Assembly: GCF_026626635.1 (NCBI RefSeq)
Contig: NZ_JAPNKA010000001.1
Location: 62,001-126,000, forward strand
DNA: 64,000 bases
Reading direction: 5' to 3'
Source of the DNA: Archangium lansingense
Lineage (GTDB): Bacteria; Myxococcota; Myxococcia; Myxococcales; Myxococcaceae
In this document: piece by piece, positions 20,428-42,298 of the stretch
Layout: every line of letters begins with the position of its first letter
How positions within the stretch are numbered: position 1 is the stretch's first letter
Notes under the pieces: model-generated
What the model was told of the DNA's origin: nothing
What the model saw: only the letters and a program-made list of their open reading frames with translations
Database searches by the model: none
Translations under genes and position numbers: made by a program

Positions 20428-22623
20428 GTGTCGAGCAGCCACTCCGCACCTCCCGCGCGACGGGGGACCCAGCTCAAGCGGGCCTCTCCTCCGCGGATGG
20501 AGGGGCGGGTGTTGGTGGTGGATGACACGGACGCCAAGCGCTACCTCATCGTCCATACGCTGCGCCTGGCGGGCATGCAGGTGGTGGAGGCGGTGAGTGG
20601 TGCGGAGGCCCTCGCGGCGGCCCGGTCGGGGCCGGACGTGGTGGTGCTGGACGTGCGCCTGCCGGACATGAGCGGCTTCGAGGTGTGCCGCCGACTCAAG
20701 GAGGACCCGGCCACCGCTGCCATTCGGGTGCTCTACAGCTCCGCGCTGCTGCAGGACGCGGAGTTGGAGGAGCGGCTCTTCGAGGATGGCGCGGATGGCT
20801 ACATTTCCCAGCCCATCGAGTCCCGGCACCTGGTGGCGCAGACCTGGGCACTGGTGCGGATGCGCCGGGCCGAGCTGGAGCGTCAGCGCGAGCGCGAGGC
20901 GTCCCAGGCCGAGCAGGCCCGGCTGCAGTGCGAGCTGGAGAAGACGCGGGCCCGGGCGCGCCGGCTCACCGAGTCGGGGGTGGACCTCTCCGAGCGCCGA
21001 GAGGCCGAGCGCCGGCTCAAGCACCTCATGGCGGAGCTGGAGTCCAGCGAGGCTCGGCTTCGCCTGGCGCTGGACTCGGCCGAGCTGGGCGCGTGGAGCT
21101 ATGACCTCACCACCCTCGAGCACCACTGGGACACGCGCGCCAAGGAGCTGTTCGGGCTGCCGCCGGAGGCTCCGGTGGACATGGAGCTGTGGCGAGCGGC
21201 AACCCACCCCGAGGATCGGGAGTGGGTGGAGGCGTCGGTCCGGCGCGCGGTGGCCCGGGAGAATGAGGGCTTCTTCTCGGCCGAGTACCGGACGGTGGGG
21301 GTGCAGGACGGGGTGTTGCGGTGGGTTGCCTCTCGGGGCCGAGTCCTCTTCGACGCGGACGGGCGGCCCACCCGGCTCTCGGGCACCTACCTGGACATCA
21401 CCGAGCGCAAGCTGGACGCGCAGCGCGCCGCGGACCTCCAGGCCACCACTGCTGCCTTCGCGCATGCGCTCACCTCCGAGCAGGTGGGGAAGGCGCTGGT
21501 GGAGCACGGGCTGAAGTCCCTGGACGCCTATGCGGGTGCCCTCTGCCTGGTGGAGGGCGAGCACATGCGCATCCTCAGCTACTTCGGCTACCCCATCCGC
21601 TTCGCCCAGGACAACAGCCTCTTTCCACTCGGCGTTCGCACCCCCTCCACCGTGGCCATTCTCGAGGGGCGGACTGTTGCGCTCCAGGCCTCGGAGTCCA
21701 TGGAGCGGGAGTGGCCCGAGTTCGCCCAGCTGCTCCAGGGGAGCCGCAGCCGCTCCTGGCTGAGCACGCCGTTGAGGGATGGAGCGCGGGTGGTGGGCGT
21801 GCTGGGGCTGAGCTTCTCCTCGCTGCGCCGCTTCAGCGCGCAGGACAAGGCGCACCTGGAGTCGATCTGCCGGTTGTGTACCCAGGCCCTGGAGCGGGCC
21901 CGGCTCTACGAGGAGGAGCGGCGGGAGAAGGAGGAGGCCCGGGAGCGCTCCGAGCTGGAGCAGCAGTACCTGGGCATGGTGAGCCATGATTTGCGCAACC
22001 CGCTGGCCGCCATCTCGCTGGGGGCGCGCACGCTGCAGCGATTGCAGCGGCCGACGCCGGAGGCGGTGTTGCGCACGGCTGGGCGCATCGCAACGAGCGC
22101 GGACAACATGGGGCGGATGATCTCCGATCTGCTCGACTTCACGCGGGGGCGGCTGGGCGGAGGCATTCCGCTGCAGCGCACGCGCAATGACCTGGTGCGG
22201 TTGTGTCAGGAAGTCATCGACGAGTTCATGGTGACGCACCCGGACCGGCGCATCCTCCTGGAGGGAGACGCGCGCTGCGAGGGGTGGTGGGACGGGGAGC
22301 GCATGCGCCAGGTGCTCTCCAACCTGCTGTCCAACGCGCTGAGGCACTCACGAGCGGGGACCGCGGTGGCCGTGCGGGCCCGGGAGCTGGAGGGCGAGGT
22401 GGAGCTGGCGGTGTCCAACGAGGGCGAGCCCATTCCGGCCGAGCTGCTGCCGGTGCTCTTCGAGCCGTTCCGCCGGGGCATGGCGAAGTTCCGGCCGGCG
22501 GGCAGCCTGGGCCTGGGCCTCTTCATCGTGCATCAGGTGGTGACGGGGCACGGCGGGCGGGTGGAGGTGGGCTCGGTTGGGGGCGTCACCTCCTTCTCCG
22601 TACGGATGCCGCGCGGGGCCTAG
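20428..22623 (+). CDS. hybrid REC-PAS-GAF sensor histidine kinase
   Basis: A 731-residue soluble kinase: receiver domain (about 26-140; acidic pair D32/D33, phospho-acceptor D75 in VLDVRLPDMSG), a coiled coil, a PAS domain with PAC (about 195-335), a GAF domain (about 340-505), the dimerisation box MVSHDLRNPL with H520, and an ATPase domain with LLSNALRHS and GSLGLGLFIVHQ. In the receiver the conserved lysine position reads SQP instead of KP, which may weaken the phospho-switch. Such REC-led kinases usually take a phosphoryl group from another kinase. The GTG start is used. It ends right at the boundary of the accessory island. Confidence 0.85.
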   Translation: MSSSHSAPPARRGTQLKRASPPRMEGRVLVVDDTDAKRYLIVHTLRLAGMQVVEAVSGAEALAAARSGPDVVVLDVRLPDMSGFEVCRRLKEDPATAAIRVLYSSALLQDAELEERLFEDGADGYISQPIESRHLVAQTWALVRMRRAELERQREREASQAEQARLQCELEKTRARARRLTESGVDLSERREAERRLKHLMAELESSEARLRLALDSAELGAWSYDLTTLEHHWDTRAKELFGLPPEAPVDMELWRAATHPEDREWVEASVRRAVARENEGFFSAEYRTVGVQDGVLRWVASRGRVLFDADGRPTRLSGTYLDITERKLDAQRAADLQATTAAFAHALTSEQVGKALVEHGLKSLDAYAGALCLVEGEHMRILSYFGYPIRFAQDNSLFPLGVRTPSTVAILEGRTVALQASESMEREWPEFAQLLQGSRSRSWLSTPLRDGARVVGVLGLSFSSLRRFSAQDKAHLESICRLCTQALERARLYEEERREKEEARERSELEQQYLGMVSHDLRNPLAAISLGARTLQRLQRPTPEAVLRTAGRIATSADNMGRMISDLLDFTRGRLGGGIPLQRTRNDLVRLCQEVIDEFMVTHPDRRILLEGDARCEGWWDGERMRQVLSNLLSNALRHSRAGTAVAVRARELEGEVELAVSNEGEPIPAELLPVLFEPFRRGMAKFRPAGSLGLGLFIVHQVVTGHGGRVEVGSVGGVTSFSVRMPRGA

Positions 22624-22945
22624 TACTACTGTGTCATGAAGTGGAGGAATTGCCGACGCAGCAGGAGGTTGCTGGCCCATGCCGGTACGAGCAAGCACGC
22701 CCGAGGAGAGGCTCGAGGCGTACCTCCATCGGTTGGGGACGGTAATGGGATACGCGGCTCGGCTGGAGCCGTTGCGCGGCGACCCGACGGGACTGCTGTT
22801 ACCGGGCGAGCGCAATAGCGTGGAGCCAATGGCGGCGAAACTCGAGTCCACGCGAGTCAGGGCGCGGCACCAGTCGCTGCTGTTTCCAATGGGTGAGGGG
22901 GATTGCACCAGGGTGCTTTCGCCTCGCTGGGCGTGGGGGTGGACA
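22624..22945 (+). pseudogene. IS701-family transposase N-terminal remnant
   Basis: From ATG 22679 the frame reads MPVRASTPEERLEAYLHRLG and then GLLLPGERNSVEPMAAKLES, followed by RVRARHQSLLF. This is the N-terminus of an IS701-type DDE transposase (typically ..EPLRAYCTGLLLPGERKSVEPMAA..). It breaks down after about residue 70 and runs on without a stop into the lipoprotein reading frame. The preceding GTACTACTGTGTCATGAAG, 1 base past the kinase stop, may be the old IS end. The catalytic part is gone, so the element is dead. Confidence 0.7.
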
Positions 22946-25282
22946 ATGCGCGCTGAGGCCCTGGTGCTCAGGTGGGCGGCGCTGCTGATGGGCGCCGTGC
23001 TGCTCTCCACCGGTTGCGTCACGCTCGGGCCGCGACACGGCGGCAGCACCTCGGAGGGCGCCCGCGCCCTCTCCACGCTGCGGGAGGCGGGCGCGACGGT
23101 GCCTCCTCTTGATGCGCGCTCCTCTCTTGCTTCCATGGAGGCGGGCGAGCACGCCTTCTCCTCCGGGGTGCACGAGCAGGAGCGGCTGCGCCGCCGCCGC
23201 AGTGCCCGCGGGCTGGGCTCGTCCTCCGCCCTGGAGAGCCCGGGCGAGGCGTCCGCGGACGAGGTGGCCAGCACGGGGCTCGTTCCCGAGGAGCCGCCCT
23301 CGTGCGGAGGGCAGGCCGTGCCTCCGGGCTGGCCCGACTTCGCCTCCAGCCGTGAGGAGTTACTGGCGCCCTTCCTCACCTGCACCTCGCCCGGGGAAGT
23401 CCTCGCCCTGCAGGAGCGGGTGGACATGCCCCGGCTGCTGGAGGCCCTGGATGACTGGCGCGCGGTGCGCTTCGGTGCCCTGGGCCCACCGCGCGAGGAT
23501 GTTGCCCGCCTGCTCAACGAAAAGCGCACCGCCCTCCTCGTGAAGGCTCCCGAGGCCTATGGGCGCCTCTACTCCGCGGTGCTCGCCGTCTTCATCGTCG
23601 ACTCGGCCTATGACGATGACTTGAGGGAGATTCTCTTCCTGCTGGCCCGGGACAAGCGGCTGGAGGAAACCCTCGCGCTGCTGCCCGCCTTCCAGGTGGC
23701 GCTGGAGAAGAGGGGGCTGAAGCCCAAGGCCCGTGTGGACAGGGACTCCGAATTCGGAGACGTGGGCCGAGGCGTTCTCCGATTCGGCGCCGACGCGCTC
23801 TCCAGCACTCTCGTGAGCGACGGAGGGCGTGAGCTCGCCTTCTTCCCCATACGGAGCCAACTGCCGCCGGAGTACCAGGAGGCCCTCGCTAGGGCCCAGC
23901 GGGAACTGGTGGAGCACGCCTCCGTGGGCACCCTGGCGCTGAGTGCGTTTGACGACCTCACCTTTGGTGTTCCGCTGGGTGGCTACCACTTCGCCGCCAA
24001 CTCCCTGCATGGCGTGCGGCTGCTCTGGCAGGGAGAGTGGGAGCAGGGCACGCGCGAGGTGGCGCCGGCGCTGGTGCTGGCCTTCGTCGCGGGTGGCAAG
24101 GGCGTGCGCCACCTCGCCAAGGGAGAAGGTGCCACGGGGGGGCGCCTGCGCACCGGGTTGGAGGCCGTGGAAGCGCGGCTGCGGACGCTGACGGAGACGG
24201 CGCGGCAGCTTCACGGGTTGCTGGGCCCGGAGGGCCTGCGGCAGGTGGTGCGCGACATCCGGGCCAGCCGGGAGGCGGGCCGCTTCGTCGCTGCGGGCGG
24301 AGCGGACGCCGCGCTGGCGCTGCTCGAGGCCGGGGGAAATGTGGCCAGGGCCCGGCCGCTCATGTCCAGGGCCAGACCCGGGGCCTCGGGCTCCCCAGTG
24401 AAGAGTGGAGAGAGAGCCAGCACCGGGAAAGCCACCGCGGCGGCGGACGATGCCGCACGACCCTTCCCGAAGCAGGCCCCTGTCACGGAGGGCCTGGGCA
24501 CCCTGGCCTCGCTGGTGGACGAGGGAGCGGGCCACACGCTCCCGGTGGTGGAGGCGAAGCTCGCGGCGGCGGAGCTCGAGGCCGCGGGCCTGCGCCTGCC
24601 CAAGGACGTGAGGGTGCTGGAACAGCACCGCCCCTCCCTCGAAGCCCCGCCGCCCGAGGCCCAGGGCAACCCGCGCTGGCGCGAGTACGTCGAGTACTAC
24701 AACACGCGCTTCAAAGAGGTGGAGAGTGGCACGGCCGCCGAGGGCCCCCTCAAGTGGGCGCCCTACGAGCAGTTGCGCGGGTGGTTTGCCCGGGGGCTGG
24801 CCTTCGAGCGCGACATGGTGAGGATGCTGCAAGAGGACGCGAAGAAGCCTCGGGCTCAGCGCAGCTTTCTCGGGGACTTCGACAGGCCGCGCATCGAAAT
24901 CCAGGTGGGCGTGAGGAAGCCGGGCACCGGCCTGCGCTACGCGGATGTGCTCGTCATCGAGGAAGGCGCGCTCGGCGGAGGGCCACGGCGCGTGGAGTCA
25001 TTCAGTTTCAAGAGCCGCGACCTCTCGGGGCTGGGGGAAAAAGCCCTGAAAGCTCAAATGATCGAGGACGCAAGCGAGGCCCTACAGAAGTACGGTGAGG
25101 CGCTGGATATCCGCCGAGGCTCCCTCCAGTCCCTTTTACCAGGGAGCGGTGAGGTGCAGGTGTCGAGAGTTCGCCTCATCTACGAGGGGGGCAAACCCAT
25201 GCCCAAGAATGTGGACCTGTTGAAGACAGCCGTGGACGAGACCAAGGCAGCGGTTCCGGGAGTGGAGGTGGTGTTTCAATGA
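22946..25282 (+). CDS. large myxobacterial lipoprotein, toxin-like, module 1
   Basis: A 778-residue lipoprotein with signal peptide and lipobox LLSTGC (acylated C24), so it should sit in a membrane facing outward. A variable region (about 30-330) precedes a hydrophobic helical part (FGVPLGGYHFAANSLHG; VAPALVLAFVAGGKGVR), a Pro/Ala-rich linker (about 470-560) and a conserved C-terminal domain of about 200 residues with FERDMV, RIEIQVGVRKP, YADVLVIEEG and SFSFKSRD. The spaced D and K in this last part recall PD-(D/E)XK nucleases but the ExK is not clear. It shares stop/start ATGA with the partner gene, as toxin/immunity pairs often do. A full paralogue is at 39949-42270. ATG 22946 was taken because the signal peptide starts here. 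Confidence 0.7.
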   Translation: MRAEALVLRWAALLMGAVLLSTGCVTLGPRHGGSTSEGARALSTLREAGATVPPLDARSSLASMEAGEHAFSSGVHEQERLRRRRSARGLGSSSALESPGEASADEVASTGLVPEEPPSCGGQAVPPGWPDFASSREELLAPFLTCTSPGEVLALQERVDMPRLLEALDDWRAVRFGALGPPREDVARLLNEKRTALLVKAPEAYGRLYSAVLAVFIVDSAYDDDLREILFLLARDKRLEETLALLPAFQVALEKRGLKPKARVDRDSEFGDVGRGVLRFGADALSSTLVSDGGRELAFFPIRSQLPPEYQEALARAQRELVEHASVGTLALSAFDDLTFGVPLGGYHFAANSLHGVRLLWQGEWEQGTREVAPALVLAFVAGGKGVRHLAKGEGATGGRLRTGLEAVEARLRTLTETARQLHGLLGPEGLRQVVRDIRASREAGRFVAAGGADAALALLEAGGNVARARPLMSRARPGASGSPVKSGERASTGKATAAADDAARPFPKQAPVTEGLGTLASLVDEGAGHTLPVVEAKLAAAELEAAGLRLPKDVRVLEQHRPSLEAPPPEAQGNPRWREYVEYYNTRFKEVESGTAAEGPLKWAPYEQLRGWFARGLAFERDMVRMLQEDAKKPRAQRSFLGDFDRPRIEIQVGVRKPGTGLRYADVLVIEEGALGGGPRRVESFSFKSRDLSGLGEKALKAQMIEDASEALQKYGEALDIRRGSLQSLLPGSGEVQVSRVRLIYEGGKPMPKNVDLLKTAVDETKAAVPGVEVVFQ

Positions 25283-26619
25283 AGTGGCTGAGCGTGCACG
25301 ATCTGAAGCCGGAGGATCTCCTCCGACTCGAGTTCGACACTGTCTTCGACCAGCAGGCGGCGCTGGAGGGACAGCTGGAGCCCTTTCTCCAGGCACTCGA
25401 GGAGTACGCCGGCGAGTGGTTGCCGGACGTCGTTGAAGGCAAGCGGCGCCGCAAATACTCCCGCGCCGCCGTCTGGAAGTCCCTTGAAGAGGAGCGCGGC
25501 CAAAGAACATTGGGGCTCGGACTTTATCGGACGAAGTGGCCCGCGTTGGACATGTCGCTCAGTCTCTGGTTTCCGCCGCTGCCTCCCAAGCTGGGAATCT
25601 TCATCAACGTGAAGCCCCTCTCCTTCTTCGCGGGGGCGGAGCGCTGCCAGCACTTCGTGGAAATGGTGCGCGCATGGGCTTCGCATTACCCCGTTACGTA
25701 CGCTAAGGCCCACAGCACTGATGACACGCAATTGACGGACTCGCCCAACTTCGGCCGCGACGACGAGACTCGCCGCAGAGACGGGTTCGACAAAGTCTAC
25801 GAGGTGTTCTGGCTCAACGTCTTCGGTCCCAAACTGGTGGAGACGGTCGGTCGCGAGCGAATGCTGTCCACCCCAGCCCACTGTGTGGAGGAACTGCCCA
25901 ACGGCTCCGTCCTCCTGGTGACGTGGCCCACCGTGGCGGATTTCGCCAGCAAGGAGGCACGGCTCGCACAGGCTCGCGCCCACGCCCACCTCCGGCCGGA
26001 CCTCGACTTCGACACCGTGCTGCGTACCTTGCATGAGCGCAGTGCCATGCTCGCCCCTGTGGAACCCCGTTTCCATCCGGACCTGGCCCCGCTTCTCTCG
26101 CGGGTGGTGGACGGCGCCGCGAGTCACGAGCGTCAGCGCAGGATCGCCGAGCTCAACGCGTGGTGCCCTCCTGAGCCCGAGGAGTGGCGCCCTGCTGACT
26201 CTGCCCTTCCTGCGGATGTAGAGAATGTGGAGCGCGCTCTCCAGCAGTACAGCCTCTACGCCGAGCATCTCGTGGCGCTGCTGCACTCGGAGGTGCCCTC
26301 CGTCTTCGAGGCCACGCCCGAGTCGCTCACGGATGCCGACTTCTACTTCTGGCGCGAGGAGTTCCCGAAGAGCCGCCAGCGGGAAGCCATCGACGAGCAC
26401 GCGGTGCCCGCCATTGGCGCGTACCTGGGCGAGGTGCTGGTGCGCAACCTGGGCGGCCGGTGGATTCCGCGACAGAAGCTCGAGGAGGCCCAGGTCCTCG
26501 TGGGCAACCGTGTCTGGCTTCCTTTCGTCCGGGCCCGCAACTACATGCGCTCGCTCCAGGCTCTGCTGGACTGCTCCCTCACCTGGCTCTACCGCGTGGC
26601 CGAGCGGCACCGGGGCTGA
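25279..26619 (+). CDS. cytoplasmic partner protein of the lipoprotein, immunity-like, module 1
   Basis: A 446-residue soluble protein starting at the ATG of an ATGA overlap with the lipoprotein stop. Two parts are visible: an N-terminal half (to about 200, with LPDVVEGKRRRKY, LYRTKWPALDMSL, KPLSFF, FVEMVRAW) and a C-terminal half (about 205-446, IGAYLGEVLVRNLGGRW, ARNYMRSLQALL). No signal peptide or membrane helix. The C-terminal half is almost identical to the paralogue at 38609-39952, the N-terminal half is more diverged. Close coupling to an exported toxin-like protein suggests immunity or a chaperone role; this is inferred from context only. Confidence 0.65.
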   Translation: MKWLSVHDLKPEDLLRLEFDTVFDQQAALEGQLEPFLQALEEYAGEWLPDVVEGKRRRKYSRAAVWKSLEEERGQRTLGLGLYRTKWPALDMSLSLWFPPLPPKLGIFINVKPLSFFAGAERCQHFVEMVRAWASHYPVTYAKAHSTDDTQLTDSPNFGRDDETRRRDGFDKVYEVFWLNVFGPKLVETVGRERMLSTPAHCVEELPNGSVLLVTWPTVADFASKEARLAQARAHAHLRPDLDFDTVLRTLHERSAMLAPVEPRFHPDLAPLLSRVVDGAASHERQRRIAELNAWCPPEPEEWRPADSALPADVENVERALQQYSLYAEHLVALLHSEVPSVFEATPESLTDADFYFWREEFPKSRQREAIDEHAVPAIGAYLGEVLVRNLGGRWIPRQKLEEAQVLVGNRVWLPFVRARNYMRSLQALLDCSLTWLYRVAERHRG

Positions 26620-26748
26620 AGCGTGAAACGACACGGTACCACCCTGGACATGAAGCTGCGGCTGGAGGTGGGGCGGCGGCACGGGGGGCTTCCGGCAGGG
26701 GCGTGGACTCCCTCGCGGCGGGGACGGTAGCAGCCGGGAACATGCGTG

Positions 26749-29442
26749 CTACTTCGAGCGCGGCGGGCGGAACGACGGCGCGGCAGCCAGCAGCTCTCGC
26801 AGTCGCCCTTCGGGTACGCGCTCCCACGCGCCGGCCGGGAGGAGCGAGCCGAAGAGGCTGGCGTCGAAGAAGTGCTGCCGGCGCATGACGCGGTCCCACT
26901 GAAACGCGTCGTAGGTCCCCTCGAAGATGAGCTGCCGGACCTCGATGAACGGTGGCTCGCCCTGCGCACCCTCCGCGAGCCACGTTTGCGCCCGCTGCTC
27001 CCACAGGCTGCCCTTGCGATCGACGCGCCCGATCTGCTGCTCGAGGACGGCCGGGTTCCATTCGGCGTGGAACTGCACGACGACGCGACAGGACTCGTGC
27101 AGGTTGAGCCCTTCGCGCCCGACCTGGCTCTGCGCGATGAGTACCCACGGCGAGGCGCCGGGCCGGTTGAAGGCGGCTTGGAGGTAGCGCCGCGTCTGCC
27201 AGCGCGTGTCTCCCTCGAGCAGTCGGGCGTGGACGCTCTGTCGCCCGTTGTCGTCCTCGAGGAGCGCCCGGAGCGCCTCGTGCCGGAGAACGGCCTGCTC
27301 CTCGTCGACATCCTCGTTGTCCAGCTCTCCGAGGAGTGGTCGCAGCCGCTCTTCGACGAACTCGGCGGCCAACGCGTCGAAGCGCTCGTGGGTGACTTCG
27401 TCGGACTCCGAGGTCGTCGCCAGGAAGTCGTCGAGGACGAACGAGACGAGGTGGTCCTCCAGCGCGCCCTCGAGCTCGCGGTCGACCGGCGCGCCGCCGA
27501 GCAACGTCGGGTCGGTGCACCACGCTACGACCGGCTTCTTCGCGCGCTCGCGCACCTGTCGGCGCAAGCGCTTGTAGTCATTGTGGCAGTCGGTCAGCGC
27601 GCGGCGCATCTCGGCGCCGTTGCCCATGGCCAGGCGCCCCGAGAGCGCGCGCTCCGCGCGCAAGCGCTCGAGCTGGCGAAGCGCGATCCCGAGCAACGCG
27701 GAGTCGGTGTGAACATCGTGAGCGATCGGCCTGCTCGCGTCGGCCGCGCGCAGCGCGTGGCGCACGTTGAGCACGTCACGGAGGAGCCGAAGCGGGCGCA
27801 GGAAGACGCCGAAGACGAGCACCTTCTCGCGGTTCAGCGTCCAGCCCTCGATCTCCTTCACAGCAGCGAGGATGCGCGGGTGCTCGGCGTCGGGGTCGAG
27901 CTCGGCCCCGTTCACGGGCGGTAGTCCTTCGAGCACGCGCTTGCGGCCGACGCGCAGACGTCGATACCAGTAGGCTGTGCGCGCGATCTTCCCGCGCGTG
28001 TGATCGTCGACGACGCCGGGCTCGGGAATATGGAGCGGCTCTTCCGTCTCCGACAAGTCGATGCTGACGTGGCCCGCCGACAGCTTCGTGTACGCATCGC
28101 GCACCGCGCGCGGCCAGTCCGCGGTGTCCTTGAGCGTCAGCCCGCGAGCGCTCTGGCTCATGCACTCGGCGGCGAACAGCACGTCGAGCCACGGCGAACG
28201 CTCGCCGACCGTCTCAGCCCAGCCGATCCTCAGCGGCAGTACGTTCCGATGCGGATGTGGGGCGTCACGGAGCCTCCCGGCGGGCAGCTTCTCCCGGAAG
28301 CCTTGGACCAACGGGTCTTCATTACGCCGACGCCGCGTGACGTACGGTGCCAGCGTCTCGGCGAAGTCCCTCGCGGCCGCGCACAGCTCGTCGAGGCGGC
28401 TGTCCTCGTCGGGCGCAACGGCCGCGCGTCCCGCGGCGTCATGCAGGCGCTCGATGACCTGGTTCCCTCGCTCGCGATCGATCTCGCTGCGCGCGCGCTC
28501 GAGGAGCTCGAGCCACTGCGACAGCTTGAGCTCCATCGGTGTCGCCGTGAGGCAAAGCCGCTGCCCGCTCTCCGGCTGCTTCAACAGCACATCGACGAGA
28601 CGCGCGAGCACGGTGCCGGAGACCGCCCCCATCGCCGTGCCTTCGACGTCCACCTCACCCCGGCTCTTGTGGGCCTCGTCGATGACGAGGAGGTCGAACT
28701 CGCCGAGCCACAGGCCCAGGAGATCCTCCACGAGGAGACGCCCATCGTCCTTGAGTGCCTCGATGAGCTTTCTGTTGTCGCCATCTCGCCGGTACGGCGG
28801 CAACTGATCGAGGCGCTCACGGAGCTTGACGCGGTCCTGCCCCCGTACCTGGCGAACCAGCTCTGAGGCGATTCGCCCGGTCGTCACATGCGGATCGTCG
28901 AGCAACCTGCCAGCGAAGGTCCGTCGATCGTCGCGCGTGGCCTGCGCCGTCAGTTCCGCGCGAACGTAGGAGGGAAGGGCTACGCGCCACTCCGCGGGTC
29001 GTCTGCCCTGCCGGACTTGTGGCGCGCGGAAGCCATGTGAGACCAGGAGCCATTCCGTGGCCCCCGGCGCCGGGGCGATCTCCTCCCAGGTCTTCGACTT
29101 CGCGTCTTCGATGAAGTCTCGTACCGAGGTGAACGTCTTGGCGTACGGCATGCCCAGCATGCGCGCTTCGTGCTGCCACTGGTGCATGAGGCCGTGCGGG
29201 ACGACGACGGCGGCCCGGCCGCCTGCTTCGAGGACCGCGTGGACCACGGCGCACGCGATGCGCGTCTTGCCGGTGCCGACCTCGTCGGCCAGCACGACAC
29301 CGCTCTGCGGCAGCCGCTCGGTCATCCACGTGAGCGATGCCCGCTGACCGTCGTCTAGGTGCTGCTCCTCACGTGGCCTGGCCGCGTCCTCCGCGACGCG
29401 CTTTCGAAGCGCGCTGGCTGCGCGGGCCCACGAGAAGCTCAT
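26749..29442 (-). CDS. SNF2/SF2-type helicase of a candidate defence operon
   Basis: An 897-residue helicase-like ATPase. Visible are Q-like upstream residues, Walker A in DEVGTGKTRIA (about 53-60), Walker B/DEAH in LLVIDEAHKS (255-258), motif III LTATPMEL, and the C-terminal RecA-like motifs QVGREGLNL and QQIGRVDRKGS. The order and long insertion between lobes are of the SNF2/RapA-type translocases found in restriction-like systems. Its start ATG 29442 overlaps the stop of the PLD gene (ATGA), so translation is coupled. Codon choice is visibly different from the housekeeping genes nearby. In concert with the PLD nuclease it would move along or unwind foreign DNA. Confidence 0.85.
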   Translation of the reverse strand: MSFSWARAASALRKRVAEDAARPREEQHLDDGQRASLTWMTERLPQSGVVLADEVGTGKTRIACAVVHAVLEAGGRAAVVVPHGLMHQWQHEARMLGMPYAKTFTSVRDFIEDAKSKTWEEIAPAPGATEWLLVSHGFRAPQVRQGRRPAEWRVALPSYVRAELTAQATRDDRRTFAGRLLDDPHVTTGRIASELVRQVRGQDRVKLRERLDQLPPYRRDGDNRKLIEALKDDGRLLVEDLLGLWLGEFDLLVIDEAHKSRGEVDVEGTAMGAVSGTVLARLVDVLLKQPESGQRLCLTATPMELKLSQWLELLERARSEIDRERGNQVIERLHDAAGRAAVAPDEDSRLDELCAAARDFAETLAPYVTRRRRNEDPLVQGFREKLPAGRLRDAPHPHRNVLPLRIGWAETVGERSPWLDVLFAAECMSQSARGLTLKDTADWPRAVRDAYTKLSAGHVSIDLSETEEPLHIPEPGVVDDHTRGKIARTAYWYRRLRVGRKRVLEGLPPVNGAELDPDAEHPRILAAVKEIEGWTLNREKVLVFGVFLRPLRLLRDVLNVRHALRAADASRPIAHDVHTDSALLGIALRQLERLRAERALSGRLAMGNGAEMRRALTDCHNDYKRLRRQVRERAKKPVVAWCTDPTLLGGAPVDRELEGALEDHLVSFVLDDFLATTSESDEVTHERFDALAAEFVEERLRPLLGELDNEDVDEEQAVLRHEALRALLEDDNGRQSVHARLLEGDTRWQTRRYLQAAFNRPGASPWVLIAQSQVGREGLNLHESCRVVVQFHAEWNPAVLEQQIGRVDRKGSLWEQRAQTWLAEGAQGEPPFIEVRQLIFEGTYDAFQWDRVMRRQHFFDASLFGSLLPAGAWERVPEGRLRELLAAAPSFRPPRSK

Positions 29443-31334
29443 CGCAGACCCCACGCGCGGGCAGCGCCATCCAGCACCTCGAAGTACCGGGCTCGCTGCT
29501 TGTCGGTCAGGTGTGGCGAGCTCAGCTCCGGCTCTCGGAGGTGTGCGAAGACGTCGAGCCGGTGCGTCCGCCATGTCGCGATGAGCGCCTCGGGGAACGA
29601 CGCGCGGAACATCCTGTCGAGGTGATCGAGCCAGTCGTCGAGCATCGACTCCGGGAGCGCGGCCTGGAGCGCGGCGACCTGCTCGACGAGCTCGGCGGAG
29701 GCGTGCAGCGCGTAGCTCTTCTCCTGCTCGGGTGCCGCCCCTTTGCCCGCGCCCTTGGTGCCGCCGCCGCCGCCGTCATCACCGTCATTACCGTCGCCGT
29801 CGTCGGTGGCCTCCGCGGGACGGATGGGGAAGTCGAGGAGCGCCGCGAGCGCGTCCGCGTAGGTGTCGAAGCGCGGTGGCTGCCAGCCGACACGCCCGGC
29901 TGCATCCACGACGGGCACGACCCACTTGCGGTTGCTCTCTCCGCGCACGCTGAGGGCGGCCGGGTTCTCGCCGTTCTTCAGGGGGACGTCATCCCCTCGC
30001 TGCACGTCGAACCAGTCGCGCCCCGTCCACGAGATGCTCACGCGCGTCCCGGCCGTGACGTCCTCGCGCCAATGCAGGCTCAGACGTCGCGACGGTTCCG
30101 GCTCGAGGGTGGCCGAGAGAATTGGCGGTGCTTCCAGGATGGGCTGTGCGTCCGGTGCGTCACCCTCCTGGCCCACTATCCACTCGTCGCCGTCGATCGT
30201 CCCTGCTTCATCGGTCCAGAACAACCAGCGCCCGATGGCCTCGCTGTCGAGCCGCTCGTCTACCGCGAAGACCACGCCGGTCTCCACGTTCCCCTCGGGC
30301 ATCGCACCGTGCGTGAGGATGCCCCGGCGCGAGAGGTTGCCAGAGCCGAGGTAGAGCCAGCCATTGCTCACGTGACCATCGCGGAGATAGCCGGCGTACA
30401 CGAACTTCGCGTGCAGCCTCCGGTTGTGGTCCAACGCGTCGAAGGGCCGAACGAGCTCCCAGCCCTCGGTCTCGCCCTCCTTGGCCCATGTCGCCACGGC
30501 GCCCGCTTCGCCGGGATCGACGAGCGCCACGCGCCGCACGTTCGCGGTGAACACGCCCAGGTCCTCGAGCTTGCCGAAGACATCGGGCTTGCGTGCCTTG
30601 GCGGACGGCTCTTCGTAGAAGCCGGAGCCGCACAGCAGCAGGTTCCTCGGCTTGTCGATCGCGCTGCGGAAGCGCTCTCGGATCTGGTCATACAGCGGGC
30701 GATCGAGCGAGTGGATGAAACGCGGCTTGCGGTTCGCGGGCGCTACCGAGGATGCGGCGGCAAGGAGCGCGTCGAGCCGCGCGGTCAGCTTGCGCTCATT
30801 CGTTGGGAGACTCTGTTCGTCGCGGTGGAAGCGCCGCGCGAGGAGCGTCTCCACGAACGCGCCGGCCGCTGCCACTTCCGCACGGTCCTCGGCACGGGCG
30901 GTGCCATCGAGCGGGAGATCGACGACCCAGACCAGCTCGAGCTGCTGCCGCGCCGAGGTATAGGTGAAGTTGGCCGTGAGGACCGCGAGGCGAAGGTGGA
31001 CCGGCGCGCCCGTCCGGTTCGGAGCGAACGCGAGCAGTGCGACCTTCGCGTGCAGGAGCGAGCCGGGATTGACCGCGCGCGGCTGAAACTCGTGAAGACC
31101 GGGGATGCGCCCTGGTGGGAAGACCGCCTGCCGCGACGACGACGAGTGCCCGTCGAGCATCAGGTACACGAGCACGTTCCCCAGCTCCGCGCGCTGTCGC
31201 GGCCGGAGGCCCGTGAAGCGCTGCACGGCGTCCTCGAGGAAGTCCTCAGTGCCCGTCATGGCGACGAGGACCGCGCTTTGCCCAACCATGCCCTCGGGCG
31301 GCACGAAGATGTCGAGGAGCGTCTCGGCGCTCAT
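29439..31334 (-). CDS. phospholipase D-family nuclease of a candidate defence operon
   Basis: A 631-residue PLD-superfamily protein with two half-sites: LLHAKVALLAF (H95, K97) with N122 in TANFT, and RLHAKFVYAGY (H308, K310) with SGN (N333). Such HxK...N pairs are typical of DNA-acting PLD proteins, as in DISARM DrmC and restriction enzymes of the BfiI type. An acidic Gly/Asp-rich linker (GDGNDGDDGGGGG) precedes a helical C-terminal domain of about 100 residues. Its start overlaps the upstream gene's stop as ATGA, and its stop overlaps the helicase start in the same way. It is the likely nuclease of the set. Confidence 0.85.
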   Translation of the reverse strand: MSAETLLDIFVPPEGMVGQSAVLVAMTGTEDFLEDAVQRFTGLRPRQRAELGNVLVYLMLDGHSSSSRQAVFPPGRIPGLHEFQPRAVNPGSLLHAKVALLAFAPNRTGAPVHLRLAVLTANFTYTSARQQLELVWVVDLPLDGTARAEDRAEVAAAGAFVETLLARRFHRDEQSLPTNERKLTARLDALLAAASSVAPANRKPRFIHSLDRPLYDQIRERFRSAIDKPRNLLLCGSGFYEEPSAKARKPDVFGKLEDLGVFTANVRRVALVDPGEAGAVATWAKEGETEGWELVRPFDALDHNRRLHAKFVYAGYLRDGHVSNGWLYLGSGNLSRRGILTHGAMPEGNVETGVVFAVDERLDSEAIGRWLFWTDEAGTIDGDEWIVGQEGDAPDAQPILEAPPILSATLEPEPSRRLSLHWREDVTAGTRVSISWTGRDWFDVQRGDDVPLKNGENPAALSVRGESNRKWVVPVVDAAGRVGWQPPRFDTYADALAALLDFPIRPAEATDDGDGNDGDDGGGGGTKGAGKGAAPEQEKSYALHASAELVEQVAALQAALPESMLDDWLDHLDRMFRASFPEALIATWRTHRLDVFAHLREPELSSPHLTDKQRARYFEVLDGAARAWGLR

Positions 31335-32614
31335 CGAGTACCTCGCGGGTCAACGTCACGCAGGAGCGAGTGCAGGTTCGCGAGGCGGAAGGTCCTGCCG
31401 GTGCGATCGGGCTCGATGCTCTCCGCGCCGTCCTCGAGGCCGCCTGCCTCGCCGGTGGCGTCGATGATGCGGAACAGCGGGCCTCGGACGACGGAGCCAT
31501 CGGCGAGCCCGAGCACCTTGCCCGCGCGCCCAACCAGAAGCCGGATGGCCTCGGCGTCATCGGCAGCAACGACCGCATCGGCGAAGGAGCGGCTCGTGGC
31601 CTCCATCACCGAGGCGCTGTTTGCCTTCTCCACGTAGTTCTTCGCGGCCGTGCGCAGGTCCGCGATGGCCCTCTTGAGCGCCGGGTCGTTGGCGAGCGTC
31701 GCGAGCTTCACGCCGCCGCGTCCTGGCTCCACCGCGCGGGTCAGGTTGGCGACTGCGTCGCGAGCCCGGTCGAGCACCGCGCCGAACCGGAGAGCCGCGA
31801 CGAGCTCGTTGGCTTGCTCGCGATGACCAGCCTCGCGAAGCCGGGGCACGACCACGCCTTCGATGTCCGGCAAGTCGGCCTTGCGCCCAAGCGCCCGCTC
31901 CAGGCGCTGCCGCTTCTCGCTTGCTGGCGTCGAGGTTCCGAGGAGCCTCGAGCGGACCAGTGCACGCTCTTCGTCGGTGGCGTGTTCGGGCGAGAGCGCT
32001 TGAAGGAGGGTCCTGGGCCAGCCAGAGAGCTCCCGGTCGCCGTCGAGCCACCCGAGCAGCCACTTGAGGAGGCTCGTCCCGCCCTTGCCGACGCGCTGTT
32101 CGAGGAACGCGTTGGCCAGGGCTCGCCCGATCGGCTCCAGCTCGAGGAGATCGAAGCGTGAGCCGCGCGCGAAGCCGAGCCCACCGTCGACCCGAATGGC
32201 GCGCGTCGCGGCCTGGCGGTGCGTGTTCCGCACGTAGCTTGTCGCCTGGCGCAGCCGGTGGAACGACCACACCTCCCGCTCGGTGTCGCGACCGAACGCG
32301 CGGCGTCCGAGGATACGCGGCGACGGGGCCTGCGGATCGACGAGGTACTCGAGCTTGCAAGCGAGTGCCTCGATGCCATGGCAGATGGCCGTTGGCTTCG
32401 GCGCGTTCGAGCCCTGGCTCGCCAGCTCCTCATGGAGCGCGAGTGCGGCCAGGGGCCACGAGAGCTGCCTCGCGAACCAGATGCGACCGAGTTCGGGCAC
32501 CACGAGCTCGCGGAAGAACAGGTCGGCCGCGCGCAGATCGAAGTCGAGCGAGAGCCGCGAGGACGTGACCTCGCTCGGTGCAGGAGAGAACCAGTATGCC
32601 GCTGTGTCGCTCAT
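31331..32614 (-). CDS. uncharacterised first gene of the helicase-PLD operon
   Basis: A 427-residue, mostly helical protein that I do not recognise. The N-terminus (SDTAAYWFSPAPSEV, DFDLRAADLFFRELVVPELG) is followed by Arg-rich helices (REVWSFHRLRQATSYVRNTH), a central GxxLLKWLLGWL segment, and a C-terminal helical region. There is no signal peptide or clear catalytic motif. It is the first gene of the operon, coupled by ATGA to the PLD gene, and begins 66 bases past the malic enzyme stop, so the operon may carry its own promoter or read through. By position it may sense or specify the target. ATG 32614 was chosen; upstream frames lie inside the malic enzyme gene. Confidence 0.7.
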   Translation of the reverse strand: MSDTAAYWFSPAPSEVTSSRLSLDFDLRAADLFFRELVVPELGRIWFARQLSWPLAALALHEELASQGSNAPKPTAICHGIEALACKLEYLVDPQAPSPRILGRRAFGRDTEREVWSFHRLRQATSYVRNTHRQAATRAIRVDGGLGFARGSRFDLLELEPIGRALANAFLEQRVGKGGTSLLKWLLGWLDGDRELSGWPRTLLQALSPEHATDEERALVRSRLLGTSTPASEKRQRLERALGRKADLPDIEGVVVPRLREAGHREQANELVAALRFGAVLDRARDAVANLTRAVEPGRGGVKLATLANDPALKRAIADLRTAAKNYVEKANSASVMEATSRSFADAVVAADDAEAIRLLVGRAGKVLGLADGSVVRGPLFRIIDATGEAGGLEDGAESIEPDRTGRTFRLANLHSLLRDVDPRGTR

Positions 32615-32679
32615 GGGCCCGCCGCACGCCGGAACGTGCGGCGAGCCATCATACCGGCGGAACGACACCACCGGAACGG

Positions 32680-34395
32680 CTACTTCCCCGACGCGCGCCG
32701 GAGGGGGAGGAACTCGGGCCGCCACATCTCGGCCTCGAGCAGGCTCTCCAGGTCCTCGGGCAGCTTGCGCATGGCCACCTCCTCCTTCACCGCCTGGCGC
32801 ATGACGGCGATGGCCACCTGCCGGCTCGCCGCGCGCAGCCGGTCCATGCGCGGGTACAGCGCGCCCTGCGCCAGCCTCGCCCCGTCCGTGTAGTCCGCCA
32901 GCGCCAGCGACGCCGCCGTCAGCATGCCGTCCGTCACCCGCTTCGCCCGCGACAGCAGCACGCCCAGCCCCAGTCCCGGGAAGATGAAGGCGTTGTTGCC
33001 CTGGCCCACCGGGTGCGGCGCCCCGTCCCACTCCACGTCCTCGAAGGGGCTGCCCGTGGCCACCAGCGCCTTGCCCTGCGTCCACTGGTAGATGTCCGCC
33101 GGCACCGCCTCGCAGTTCGCCGTCGGGTTGCTCAGCGCGAACACCACCGGGTACGGCGTGTTCGCCGCCACCGCCTTCACCACGTCCTCGCCAAATGCCG
33201 CGCGCTGCCCGCTCAGCCCCAGGAGCACCGTCACCTTCGCCTCCCGCGCCGTCTCCAGCAGGCTCGGAATCGAGCCCTGCATCTTCCACCCCGCCACGCG
33301 CGAGGGCTCGTGCGCGAACTCCAGCTTGTACGGCTCCAGCCCCTTGCGGTCCTTCAGGATGAGGCCCTTGGAGTCGATGAGGTAGATGTGCTCGCGCGCC
33401 TGCTGCGTGCTCATCCCCTCGCGCTCCATGCCGCGGACAATCTGCCGCGCCACGCCCACGCCGCCCGCGCCCGCTCCGTGCACCAGGTACACCTGCTGGC
33501 CGAGCGTCGTCTGGCTGCGCCGCGTGGCCGACAGCAGGCCCGCCAGCACCACCGCGCCCGTGCCCTGGATGTCGTCATTGAGCGAGGGCAGCACGTCCCG
33601 GTAGCGCTCCAGCACGTCGAAGGCCTTCTGCTTGCTGAAGTCCTCCCACTGCACCAGCACGTTGGGGAAGCGCCGCTTGAGCGCCGTCACGAAGGCGTGG
33701 ATGAAGTCGTCGTACTCCTTGCCCTCCATGCGCGGCCGCTTCACGCCCAGGTAGAGCGGGTCATCCAACAGCTCCTTGCGGTTGGTGCCCACGTCCAGCT
33801 CCACGGGCAGCGTCACCGCCGGGTCGATTCCCGCCGCGGCCGTGTACAGCGACAGCTTGCCAATGCAGATGGCCAGGCCGCCGAAGCCCTGGTCCCCAAT
33901 GCCCAGAATCCCCTCGTTGTCCGTGGCGACAATCAGCTGCACGTCCGGGAAGGGCGTGTTCGCCAGCAGCGCGTCGATCTCCCCGATGTTCTCCGGGCTC
34001 ACCACCAGCCCGCGCGGATAGCGGTAGATGCGGCTGAACTGCTCCACCGCCTGCGCCACCACGGGGGTGTAGATGATGGGCATCATCTCCTCGATGTGCC
34101 GGTTCAGCAGCGCGTAGAAGAGCACCTCGCTGCGGTCCTGCAGCGCGCGCAGGTAGACGTGCTTGTCCAGGTCCGAGCGGAAGGAACGGAAGTTGGCGTA
34201 GGCGCGCTCGAGCTGCTCGTCCAGAGTGGACACGTGCGTGGGCAGCAGGCCCAGCAGTCCGAACTCGCGCCGCTCCTCCAGGCTGAAGGAGGTGACCTTG
34301 TTGAGCAGGGGCAGGCGGGTGAGCATCAGCCCCTCCAGGTGCGTCTCCAGGTAGGGCCGGCCGTGGGCGTCGAGCTTCTTCTCGTACTGTTTCAT
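32680..34395 (-). CDS. maeA: NAD-dependent malic enzyme
   Basis: A 571-residue malic enzyme of the long bacterial/eukaryotic type, which decarboxylates malate to pyruvate with NAD. Visible are MPIIYTPVVAQAVEQ, PRGLVVSPENIGEI, ATDNEGILGIGDQG, QWEDF, the NDDIQGTG block with metal-binding aspartates and VHGAGAGGVGVA, the NAD(P) Rossmann motif. The length equals that of E. coli MaeA. ATG 34395 follows a divergent region shared with the spermidine-synthase-like gene. It feeds pyruvate and NADH in carbon metabolism and is part of the conserved chromosome beside the accessory operon. Confidence 0.93.
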   Translation of the reverse strand: MKQYEKKLDAHGRPYLETHLEGLMLTRLPLLNKVTSFSLEERREFGLLGLLPTHVSTLDEQLERAYANFRSFRSDLDKHVYLRALQDRSEVLFYALLNRHIEEMMPIIYTPVVAQAVEQFSRIYRYPRGLVVSPENIGEIDALLANTPFPDVQLIVATDNEGILGIGDQGFGGLAICIGKLSLYTAAAGIDPAVTLPVELDVGTNRKELLDDPLYLGVKRPRMEGKEYDDFIHAFVTALKRRFPNVLVQWEDFSKQKAFDVLERYRDVLPSLNDDIQGTGAVVLAGLLSATRRSQTTLGQQVYLVHGAGAGGVGVARQIVRGMEREGMSTQQAREHIYLIDSKGLILKDRKGLEPYKLEFAHEPSRVAGWKMQGSIPSLLETAREAKVTVLLGLSGQRAAFGEDVVKAVAANTPYPVVFALSNPTANCEAVPADIYQWTQGKALVATGSPFEDVEWDGAPHPVGQGNNAFIFPGLGLGVLLSRAKRVTDGMLTAASLALADYTDGARLAQGALYPRMDRLRAASRQVAIAVMRQAVKEEVAMRKLPEDLESLLEAEMWRPEFLPLRRASGK

Positions 34396-34707
34396 GGGGG
34401 AAACTTCGTCTCGATGAAAATGGGGGGCGATCCCTTAACGGCTTGCCCTCGGCCGCAACAAGGTCCCCCACCGGGCGGGCATAAGAGCGGGTTCGGGTCT
34501 CCCATGCGGCCCATGTACGGCGCTTCGCGCCAACACGCCGCGTCAGCCAGTGCCGTCATCCGACGTGTCAGGTAGTTATTCCCAGGCAACGCGAGGGCTG
34601 TTGGCCCGCCTGGTTCGGGAGCGGCTTTGAACGTGGAACTGGCTACCCCGGGCCGGCACTGGTTCAATCCCCGCCCCGCTTCTTTCGCCGCAACTGGCCG
34701 AGGATCG
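34396..34707. other. divergent intergenic region
   Basis: These 312 bases separate the malic enzyme and the membrane spermidine-synthase-like gene. No supported gene, repeat or RNA was seen. Both promoters must lie here. An in-frame GTG-type extension of the plus-strand gene to 34627 is possible but lacks membrane or domain features. Confidence 0.5.
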
Positions 34708-37700
34708 ATGAACGCACGTGTCTGGAAGATAGCCCCCCTGCTGTTCGGCTCGGGATTCTGTGCCCTGGTGTACCAGACCGCGTGGCAGCGCGAGCTGCGC
34801 CTCATCTTCGGGGCCTCCACGGCCGCATCGGCCGCGGTGCTGGCCATCTTCATGGGCGGGCTGGGGCTCGGAGGCGCGTTGCTGGGCGGCCGTGTGGACC
34901 GGGAGAAGCGCCCACTGGCCTTCTACGCCAACCTGGAGCTGCTCATCTCCCTGAGCGCGGCGGTGACGCCGGCGCTGGTGTGGCTGGCGCGGCTCGTCTA
35001 CACGGGCCTGGGCGGCACGGTGTCGATGGGGCTGGGCTTCGGCTCGGTGGTGCGGCTGGTGCTCTCCGCGCTGGTGCTCGCGGTGCCCACGCTGCTGATG
35101 GGTGGCACGCTGCCGGCGGCGGCGCGCGCGGCGGAGACGCAGGACGACGTGCGGCGCCGGGCGCTCGCCGTCCTCTACGGCCTCAACACCCTGGGCGCGG
35201 TGGCCGGCGCGGCGGCCTCCACCTTCCTCCTCTTCGAGGTCTTCGGCACCCGCAGCACCCTGTGGCTGGCGGCGCTCCTCAACGTGCTGGTGGCCCTGAT
35301 TGCGCGTGCGGTGGCGCGGGGACTGCCCGACCATGAGGACTCCGCCGCACCGGCCGAGGCCGCTGCTGCTGCTGCCCCGGAGGCCGCGACGGCCTCCCTG
35401 CCGCCGCGCCGCTTCGTGCTGAGCGCCGCGGCGCTGGTGGGCTTCGCCTTCTTCCTCATGGAGATGGTGTGGTACCGGATGCTGGGGCCCCTGCTGGGCG
35501 GCTCCACCTTCACCTTCGGCATCATCCTGGTGGTGGCGCTGGCGGGCATCGGCCTGGGCGGCGCGGCGTACGCGGCGTGGGGCCAGCAGCGCCCGGCCAC
35601 CCTGCGTGGCTTCGCGCTGACGTGTCTGCTGGAGGCGCTGCTGCTCGCCGTGCCCCTGGCGCTGGGCGACCGGATGGCGGTGTTCGCTTCTCTCATGCGG
35701 CCCCTGTCCATCTTCGGCTTCGGCGGCCTGGTGCTGAGCTGGGCCATCGTCGCCGCGGTGGTGGTGCTGCCGGCAGCCTTCATCTCCGGCGTGCAGTTCC
35801 CCCTGCTGCTGGCGCTGCTGGGCCGCGGCGGTAACAACGTGGGCCGCCAGGTGGGCATGGCCTACGCGTGGAACACGGCGGGCTCCATCGTGGGCTCGCT
35901 GGCGGGCGGTTTCGGCCTGCTGCCGCTGCTCTCCGCCCCTGGTGTCTGGCGGCTGGTGGGCGCGGTGCTGGTGGGCCTGGGGCTCGCCGCCGTGGTGCTG
36001 TCGCTGCGCCAGGAGCAGGCGACGCCGGGACGCATGGTGCCGCCGCTGGCCGCCGCCGTGGTGGCCGCCCTGCTGCTCACCGCAGTGGGACCCACGGCCG
36101 CCTGGCGTCACAGCGCCATCGGCGCCGGCCGCGACAAGCTGGAAGGGGGCAACTCCATCAACGGCGTGCGCGACTGGATGGCTGGCCAGCGCCGCTGGCT
36201 GCGCTGGGAGACGGACGGTGTGGAGAGCAGCGTCGGCGTCCTCGGCGCCTACGGCCTGTCCTTCATGGTGAATGGCAAGTCGGACGGCAACAGCCTCGGC
36301 GACTCGGGCACCCAGGTGATGGGCGGCCTCATCGGCGCCTTCACCCATCCCAACCCCCGCCGCTCGCTCGTGGTGGGCCTGGGCACCGGCAGCACCGCCG
36401 GCTGGCTCGGCTCCGTGCCGGAGATGGAGCGGGTGGACGTGGTGGAGATCGAGCCTGCCATCCTCCACTTCGCGCGCATGTGCCAGGACGTCAACGAGCG
36501 CGTGCTCGACAACCCCAAGGTGAAGGTGCACCTGGACGACGCCCGCGAGGTGCTGCTGGCCTCCAAGGAGTCCTACGACATCATCTTCTCCGAGCCCTCC
36601 AACCCCTACCGGGCCGGCATCTCCAGCCTCTTCTCGCGCGAGTTCTACCAGGCGGTGAAGAAGCGGCTGGCGCCCGGGGGCATCTTCCTGCAGTGGCTGC
36701 AGACGTACGAGGTGGATGCGCGCACGGTGCGCAGCGTCTACGCCACGCTGTCCAGCGAGTTCGGCGCGGTGGAGACGTGGCACACGCAGGGTGGAGATCT
36801 CATCCTCATGGCCACCGAGCAGCCGCAGCGGCATGACTTGGAGCTGATGCGGGCGCGCGTGTCGCAGGAGCCCTACCGTCGGGCGCTGCCCGCCGTCTGG
36901 GGCACGAACGAGCTGGAGGGCGTGCTGGCACACTTCATCGCCGGGCCCGCGCTGTCCAAGGCGCTGGCCGAGGGCCAGGAGGCGCTCCTCAACACGGATG
37001 ACCTCTCGTACGTGGAGTTCGCCTTCGCCCGCAGCGTGGGGCGCAAGGACACGGGCTTCTCCTACCCGCTGCTGCGCAGGCGCAGCCGGGAGCTGAACGT
37101 GGACCGTCCGGAGGTGGCGCGCGGTACGGCGGACTGGCATCGGGTGGAGGAGCTGCGGCTGTCCGGCGAGCTTCCCTACTCCATGAATCAGCCTGGCGTG
37201 AACAAGGCCGCGCTGGAGAACCACCAGGCCTTCAGCGAGGCGTACCGCCGCAACCAGCACGCCAGGGCCCTGCAGCTGTGGCGCGAGGGCGGCTGGCAGC
37301 CCCGGGGCCCCATCGAGCTGGTCCGGGTGGCCGAGTCGCTGGCCGCCGCGGGTGAGGAGGCGGCGATGATGCCCTTCGTCGAGGAACTGCGCCCCACGAG
37401 GCCCTTCGATGCCGAGGCGCTGGTGGCCCGGCTGCGCAAGCAGCAGCAGCGTCCGGTGGAGGAGACGGAGTCGCTCGAGCGCGCCTTCGCCATCCTGCGC
37501 CAGACGCCCTGGCACAACCGCTCCCTGTTGCAGGATGCGCTGACGCAGGCGTTGACCATTTCCCAGAAGGACCCGGTCCTGGGGCGGCGGCTGTGGACCG
37601 CGCTGGACAAGCCCTTCTCCAACTACGCCGGGGAGAGCCTGCGCCTGGGCGTCCGGCTGGACATGGCCGATCGGATTGACCCCAAGGGGGGCCTGTGCGC

Positions 37701-37990: not shown

Positions 37991-38551
37991 ATGTCGGAGA
38001 CCCCACTCGTCTTCAACCATACCGTCCAGGGACTGTTCTCCCGCACGTTCCCGGACGGGGTCCCCCCCGAGCTCAAGGCGCAGCTGCGCGTGGCGGGGGT
38101 GGACCTGGACAAGCCGCTGCTGCCGGCCTACCCGACCACGGTGTGGTCGCGCTGCATCGACCTGGGTGCCCGGGCCGCCTTCCCCGACGAGCCGCGCCGC
38201 GAGCTGGCCTGGCGCCGGATGGGCGAGCGGATGATCGACGGCTACCAGGACTCGATGATTGGCCGGGCGATGTTCTCCATGCTCCAGGTGCTGGGGCCGC
38301 GCCGGATGTTGCAGCGGGCGCAGAAGAACTTCCGCACCGGCAACAACTACAGCGAGGTCCGCATCACCGAGGTGTCTCCCACGGAGATGGAGCTGTGGTT
38401 CAACGAGACGGACGACGTGCTGCGCCACTTCACGGTGGGCCTGGTGCTCGCGGGCATGCGCGCCGGGGGCGCGGATGAGCCCCAGGTGCGGCTGCACGAC
38501 ATGGACGCGAAGGGCTTCACCATGCGCGCCACGTGGAAGCCCAAGGTCTGA
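37991..38551 (+). CDS. DUF2378 family protein (myxobacterial paralogous family)
   Basis: A 186-residue protein of DUF2378, a family expanded in myxobacteria. Signature segments are FNHTVQGLF, GVDLDKPLLPAYP, GRAMFSMLQVLGPRRML and NNYSEVRITEVSPTEMELWFNE. Function is unknown; another member is at 49504-50124. The last 31 bases (38521-38551) recur 3.7 kb downstream at 42268-42298, after an inserted lipoprotein/partner module, so the original 3' flank was probably the second copy. The coding sequence itself is intact. Confidence 0.88.
   Translation: MSETPLVFNHTVQGLFSRTFPDGVPPELKAQLRVAGVDLDKPLLPAYPTTVWSRCIDLGARAAFPDEPRRELAWRRMGERMIDGYQDSMIGRAMFSMLQVLGPRRMLQRAQKNFRTGNNYSEVRITEVSPTEMELWFNETDDVLRHFTVGLVLAGMRAGGADEPQVRLHDMDAKGFTMRATWKPKV
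38521..38551 (+). repeat. 31-bp direct repeat, left copy (3' end of DUF2378 gene)
   Basis: The last 31 bases of the DUF2378 gene, starting CATGCGCGCCACGTGG and ending in TGA, are repeated at 42268-42298 with one change (T to C six bases before the end). The two copies bracket exactly the lipoprotein/partner module. This is what an insertion at a gene 3' end by site-specific recombination or end-duplication would leave. No integrase is present between them. Confidence 0.85.
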
Positions 38552-38608
38552 AGTCCTTCTCGCCGCGGCATTCGATGGGACCACGGAGATGGTCCGAGGT
38601 GCGCCTCA

Positions 38609-42270: not shown

Positions 42271-42298
42271 GCGCGCCACGTGGAAGCCCAAGGCCTGA
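42268..42298 (+). repeat. 31-bp direct repeat, right copy
   Basis: Copy of the last 31 bases of the DUF2378 gene (30 of 31 the same), in the same orientation, 3747 bases downstream of the first. Downstream of it begins the end of the convergent 2OG oxygenase gene, which was probably the original neighbour of the DUF2378 gene. Confidence 0.85.

Follow-up and report, generated by a model that had tools for sequence, protein, structure and literature searches.

Azaca appears in a review table of defence systems. It comprises ZacA, a DUF6361 protein, ZacB, which resembles proteins of the phospholipase D (PLD) superfamily, and the SNF2 helicase ZacC. The pairing of a PLD nuclease with an SNF2 helicase is also found in DISARM (DrmC and DrmD) and, judged by its protein models, in the PADLOC candidate system PDC-M27 (B, PLD-like; C, SNF2-type helicase). 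A whole-word literature search found no paper naming Azaca together with ZacB; likewise, neither PDC-M27 nor DUF6361 occurred among the matches listed in searches for these names. Here, we analyze an operon of Archangium lansingense that follows the Azaca plan and is located at positions 26749–32614, on the minus strand, of a 64,000-nucleotide stretch of contig NZ_JAPNKA010000001.1 (this whole stretch is referred to as the window). It encodes a protein that we call A, a PLD-superfamily protein (PLD) and an SNF2-type helicase, and we consider it probable that this triplet is a mobile module of the Azaca kind directed against phages (or plasmids), in which a variable first subunit is combined with a PLD nuclease and an SNF2 motor.

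Gene A (31331..32614; 427 residues) is followed on the same strand by the gene for PLD, a predicted nuclease (29439..31334; 631 residues), and by that for the helicase or translocase (26749..29442; 897 residues). An earlier note, made from the letters of the window, had described three genes on one strand with an ATGA overlap at each junction, and these coordinates bear it out: the overlaps are located at 31331..31334 (A/PLD) and 29439..29442 (PLD/helicase), both on the minus strand. The mechanically called open reading frame of the helicase starts at 29574; we prefer the ATG at 29442, since both junctions are then ATGA overlaps, as they are in five of the seven relatives checked (the remaining two read ATGA then A, and ATGA then GTGA). 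All three proteins are probably produced from one coupled mRNA.

PLD contains the half-sites H95/K97/N122 and H308/K310/N333 together with E351, an HKN plus E layout that we take to be like that of tyrosyl-DNA phosphodiesterase 1 (Tdp1). These catalytic columns are invariant in all 14 aligned members, which agrees with the two HxK...N half-sites that had been read from the second gene and predicts an active phosphodiesterase. The window copy has weak PLDc_2 and Tyr-DNA_phospho matches in Pfam; among ten PLD members searched at E ≤ 1, eight match PLDc_2 and four Tyr-DNA_phospho (best 1.8e-6). The helicase carries the invariant motifs ADEVGTGKT, DEAH, and QIGRVDR and the Pfam domains SNF2-rel_dom (3.4e-8) and Helicase_C (1.7e-8), so that the full set of helicase motifs claimed for the third gene is present. 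All PADLOC matches of the triplet come from this protein (DrmD, PDC-M27C, BrxH, DpdE, and ZacC), and each of them is restricted to the helicase motifs. NCBIfam names none of the three proteins above its cut-off.

At E ≤ 1, neither Pfam nor NCBIfam nor PADLOC gave a match for the window copy of A, which agrees with the earlier observation that the first gene has no known motif. Pfam gave no informative match among 11 A members (DUF6361 in 0/11 at E ≤ 5), none of 15 A members matches any PADLOC model at E ≤ 1, and sequence searches of the PDB yielded nothing useful for A or PLD. It is possible that A is a recognition or adaptor subunit. Protein searches in which 8000 candidates were scored returned at least 251 homologs of A and at least 266 of PLD; among the matches listed (best 120 of 251 and best 120 of 266, query excluded), these were 67–87% and 70–87% identical, respectively. 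The sources named for the homologs include Vitiosangium, Corallococcus, Sorangium, Thiocystis, Bradyrhizobium, Desulfobacteraceae, and Phycisphaeraceae. A 10.1-Mb contig of Corallococcus exercitus apparently possesses two copies each of A and PLD (P0004/P0015 and P0151/P0207).

To judge conservation we compared 22 distinct loci (the window, L002–L017, L025, L026, L042, L043, and L048) from genome collections, plasmids, and one viral contig. The panel search took 27 sequences; L044, L046, and L047 (fetched for an ATPase only) and L045 and L049 (duplicates of L006 and L048) were left out. Since the loci were mostly retrieved through PLD, its presence in them is given; A adjoins it in 22/22 and the helicase, whole or partial, is next in 21/22, the contig of L009 ending before the helicase and that of L043 just after its start. 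The family is present in several phyla and on plasmids. Gene order is maintained in relatives whose A proteins are 23–85% identical, and ratios of non-synonymous to synonymous substitution rates (dN/dS) determined against L002, L003, L004, and L006 are 0.13–0.23 for A, 0.13–0.17 for PLD, and 0.22–0.27 for the helicase. All three genes are therefore kept under purifying selection, with the helicase changing fastest, and the low ratios together with the preserved order argue that the triplet is more than a chance association. Damaged copies are found in L008, L009, and L016, the last of which is broken by an IS21-type transposase gene, and in Paracoccus A and PLD share a single open frame of 1004 residues.

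Searches led by A and by PLD recovered the same 3/195 genomes of the phylum (window genome included), the same seven plasmid records, four of which are typed conjugative, and the same single viral contig, so that every A-led match also has PLD. A first gene that occurs mostly alone, an outcome that the earlier note had considered, was thus not seen where tested, and the reading of the triplet as a module stands. The viral contig (L048; 75 kb, classed viral) carries AAA, WYL, ADP-ribosylglycohydrolase, and AddBA-like genes along with the triplet, and it may represent not a phage but a plasmid or an island. A collection of phages contained no PLD match, and viral contigs contained no match to DUF6361.

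The PLD gene is rare among relatives. It was found in 1/59 of them (own genome only), and three further phylum searches gave 2/398, 1/297, and 1/247 genomes, with the centre genome counted each time. Synteny delimits a segment of approximately 10 kb (22620..32681), consisting of a multi-copy gene pair and the operon, that is absent from 5/5 same-genus genomes. Its right-hand flank is a conserved malic enzyme gene outside the system (32680..34395, minus strand; Pfam and synteny), and its left-hand flank is a histidine kinase gene that extends to about 22620. In 5/5 congeners, three of which were also aligned, the distance between the matches to these two genes ranges from 25 bp to approximately 1.07 kb; the ~10 kb, i.e., the pair at 22679–26619 plus the operon, are therefore extra here. 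The kinase belongs to a tandem family in the congeners, so that the nearest kinase copy (74–76% identical) may be a paralog. Because the site is empty in all five congeners, the operon was probably acquired. The dead insertion sequence that had been placed beside the operon was not confirmed, as Pfam recognizes nothing in 22679–25282; positions 22875–26619 constitute a multi-copy genomic element, to which all six genus genomes searched contain several to many matches each. The gene pair at 22679–26619 has a paralogous counterpart at 38609–42291, both without a Pfam match, and the region 38551–42270 is likewise lacking between the flanking sequences of L065, the relative in which both flanks were aligned contiguously.

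For comparison with Azaca, we examined four full-length chromosomal loci (L080–L083) and ten plasmid loci (L084–L093). The order first gene, PLD gene, helicase gene on one strand is found in 14/14 of them and in the window. As in the triplet, the genes are usually coupled (L086 has a disrupted first gene, and in L087–L089 the first two genes are gapped and do not overlap), the PLD-like protein has H.K...N and H.K...N...E motifs, and the system occurs on plasmids. The first two gene products, approximately 390–440 and 600–620 residues in the chromosomal loci, are similar in size to A and PLD, whereas the helicase is shorter in the triplet (about 900 vs. 1050 residues). By profile comparison PLD is detectably, and distantly, related to ZacB (95.7%, E 8.9e-9), while the cross pairs A–ZacB and PLD–ZacA gave 1.5% and 0.1%. 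The ZacB model also matches a short stretch of the Haematobacter and Pantoea PLD members (2.9e-8 and 8.4e-8), at scores like those of short matches in many genomes. The window copies of A and PLD match neither the ZacA nor the ZacB model in PADLOC at E ≤ 1. For ZacC, the helicase scored 2.3e-13, weaker than for DrmD, PDC-M27C, BrxH, and DpdE, and the profile match is restricted to 54 columns of motifs. In contrast to the first subunit of Azaca, A shows no detectable relationship with DUF6361, and we reject strict membership in Azaca on the first gene, which matched neither DUF6361 nor ZacA and did no better than shuffled controls. An N-terminal "LGL...PG" pattern common to A and ZacA by eye is not claimed, the shuffle test having given no support.

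Other systems share parts of this plan. The helicase matches PDC-M27C (3.9e-16) in PADLOC, and neither the window PLD nor the 15 A members match a PDC-M27 model at E ≤ 1. A three-part unit in L094 (3267–14052) has the order of the triplet, with proteins of 434, 686 (PLD), and 943 (SNF2) residues. Its PLD protein matches the PLD family of the triplet (87%, E 3.9e-6, 313 columns) and ZacB (3.3e-16), and its first protein has no detectable relation to A or ZacA; the unit adjoins a DrmD-like helicase gene (PADLOC 1.5e-279) and a gene that is Hsp70-like by eye. Two-gene units at L095:5901–10083, L098:6724–11116, and L099:5691–9856, with no helicase seen adjoining them, combine a protein of 550–615 residues with a PLD-like protein of 827–871 residues. 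The L095 PLD protein matches PDC-M27B and ZacB, and the first protein of L095 has a PG..T..R.RY..F.PW motif in common with DUF6361 (E 2.2e-4, probability 45%). A single-chain PLD-helicase (NF042964, PLD_Helicase in PADLOC) was rejected as the family of the triplet, which consists of separate genes and scores 61 bits vs. a cut-off of 1100, and so was BREX, no core gene of which was recognized among the window proteins scanned.

Several gene families accompany the triplet at other loci. Within the sequence available for each locus, genes for a two-domain AAA ATPase and a WYL regulator occur in 9/22 loci, an AddBA-like pair (PD-(D/E)XK and UvrD proteins) in 6/22, a DUF2779 gene in 3/22, and BREX-1 PglZ-BrxL, which adjoins the triplet, in 2/22. 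None of these families is constant across the 22 loci, and the panel search found none of them in the window. One AAA query against the own genome gave eight matches and no full-length homolog; as the best match was only 39% over 142 residues, we conclude that there is no AAA orthologue. Upstream of the Azaca locus L082 (ZacA 1.9e-119 and ZacB 1.8e-160 in PADLOC) directly lies an AddBA-like pair whose proteins are 39% and 46% identical, over their full length, to those beside the Haematobacter triplet; in L088 and L092, the UvrD and PD-(D/E)XK neighbors are different ones. A search with the PD-(D/E)XK protein retrieved 11 plasmid records; of the ten examined (all but that of Thioclava), five have the triplet and five lack it. 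In the latter five (L100–L104), the pair stands without an intact triplet, and WYL or HEPN-like genes are near it in 4/5; a helicase-like fragment of 103 residues lies upstream in L100, and the unannotated L104 was judged triplet-free by panel search alone. This pair may form an independent defence unit of two genes. Neither the AddBA-like pair nor the AAA/WYL unit was retained as a core part, the former in view of these plasmids and the latter in view of homologs elsewhere in the same genomes. L006 encodes a protein with WYL, WCX, and GGDEF domains (2425–3735) near the AAA ATPase.

Part of this evidence weighs against a module of the Azaca kind. Profiles of A and ZacA show no detectable homology (hhalign P 0.083), and their score was equalled by 44/200 column and 35/200 block shuffles. 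The PLD–ZacB match spans only about 120 columns (the N-terminus and the first half-site), without an unrelated PLD family as a control, and the ZacB model matches 33/398 genomes (full-length in the four that yielded L080–L083, weaker in 29) as well as 3/14 named control genomes; short ZacB matches may therefore mean no more than membership in the PLD superfamily. The helicase shows no preference for ZacC over DrmD. Furthermore, with the AddBA-like pair lacking an intact triplet in 5 of 10 examined plasmid records and AAA/WYL homologs occurring apart from the triplet, these neighbors may only mark defence islands. On the other side, we count the patchy spread, the empty site in congeners, and the defence-type neighbors elsewhere for an anti-phage module.

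Three further explanations compete with an anti-phage module of the Azaca kind. The operon could exclude or destabilize competing plasmids rather than phages; we regard this as unlikely, although it would suit the presence of the triplet on seven plasmids, four of them conjugative, and on a contig classed viral. Here, the operon is part of a 13.76-Mb contig, and Pfam found no transfer gene among the eleven window proteins scanned; by sequence, such interference is inseparable from anti-phage action. Somewhat less plausible still is a DNA repair module in which a Tdp1-like phosphodiesterase and an SNF2 remodeller clear protein-DNA adducts or broken ends. The HKN plus E layout, the Tyr-DNA_phospho matches of four PLD members, and the AddBA-like helicase-nuclease pairs in 6/22 loci would fit this, but the patchy distribution, the lack of the operon in close relatives, the location on conjugative plasmids, and the adjacency to BREX-1 suit defence better, and Azaca, which has the same plan, stands among defence systems in the review table.

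A DISARM-like restriction system, in which an unlinked methyltransferase elsewhere marks self and the operon cuts unmodified DNA, appears the most improbable of these. DrmD is indeed the best PADLOC match of the helicase (1.5e-18), and the triplet adjoins BREX-1, which carries a methyltransferase, at two loci. However, the DrmD match reaches 81 bits vs. a cut-off of 610, A and PLD of the window have no PADLOC match at E ≤ 1, and Pfam detected no DNA methyltransferase among the eleven window proteins (no systematic search for one was made in the flanks of the other loci or elsewhere in the genome). The sole methyltransferase-type match among these proteins is a weak one to Methyltransf_30 in a spermine-synthase-like protein (34627–37941). 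DrmA and DrmB (DUF1998) were likewise absent from the window proteins scanned, the rest of the genome not having been searched, and the earlier statement that no DISARM part adjoins the operon holds for these proteins. We consequently rejected DISARM as the family of the triplet, given a DrmD score far under the cut-off and no DrmA, DrmB, or methyltransferase recognized beside the operon.

The earlier note had proposed a compact anti-phage module of a possibly undescribed type. Our data support a mobile three-gene unit with a likely function in defence; the anti-phage effect itself is inferred. The suggested novelty is only half borne out: no PADLOC or NCBIfam model names the triplet, but its plan is that of Azaca and its PLD protein is distantly related to ZacB. 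The accessible parts of PMC12839542, PMC11090510, PMC12458937, PMC12278908, PMC12926258, and PMC10740426 do not describe it, by which we do not claim its absence from print. The best reading of the triplet is that of an unnamed, divergent member of the kind made up of a variable first subunit, a PLD nuclease, and an SNF2 motor.

If it works as such a module, the three proteins would probably act as one complex with an inferred trigger and target. The SNF2 protein would move along DNA and check its state, i.e., the presence of ends, replication intermediates, or stalled complexes; A would couple the motor to the nuclease or set the recognition target; and upon recognition the HKN nuclease would be released and cleave the invading nucleic acid. 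It is probably the state of the DNA that is recognized, because the module has no modification enzyme, and self would probably be spared since an intact host chromosome presents no trigger and needs no marking. In Hachiman, the helicase HamB is reported to be the sensor and the nuclease HamA the effector, and by analogy the SNF2 motor may be the natural sensor of the triplet. We liken the two by working mode only. Hachiman has two genes, and its protein families differ from those of the triplet.

More tentatively, the triplet could represent a separate defence class, a possibility that we hold to be the less likely one. A would then be a novel subunit for recognition that has no relation to DUF6361, on a general PLD-SNF2 chassis whose first subunit can be exchanged (for A, DUF6361, the first protein of L094, and perhaps others). 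The choice of the trigger would reside in the first gene, and the Tdp1-like nuclease would act on DNA ends or protein-linked ends. If the favored reading of the triplet as a divergent module of the Azaca kind is true, Azaca, the candidate PDC-M27, and the triplet would be versions of one chassis of PLD nuclease and SNF2 motor, whose first subunit has been swapped or has evolved beyond recognition, and they would form a class of defence without visible self-marking.

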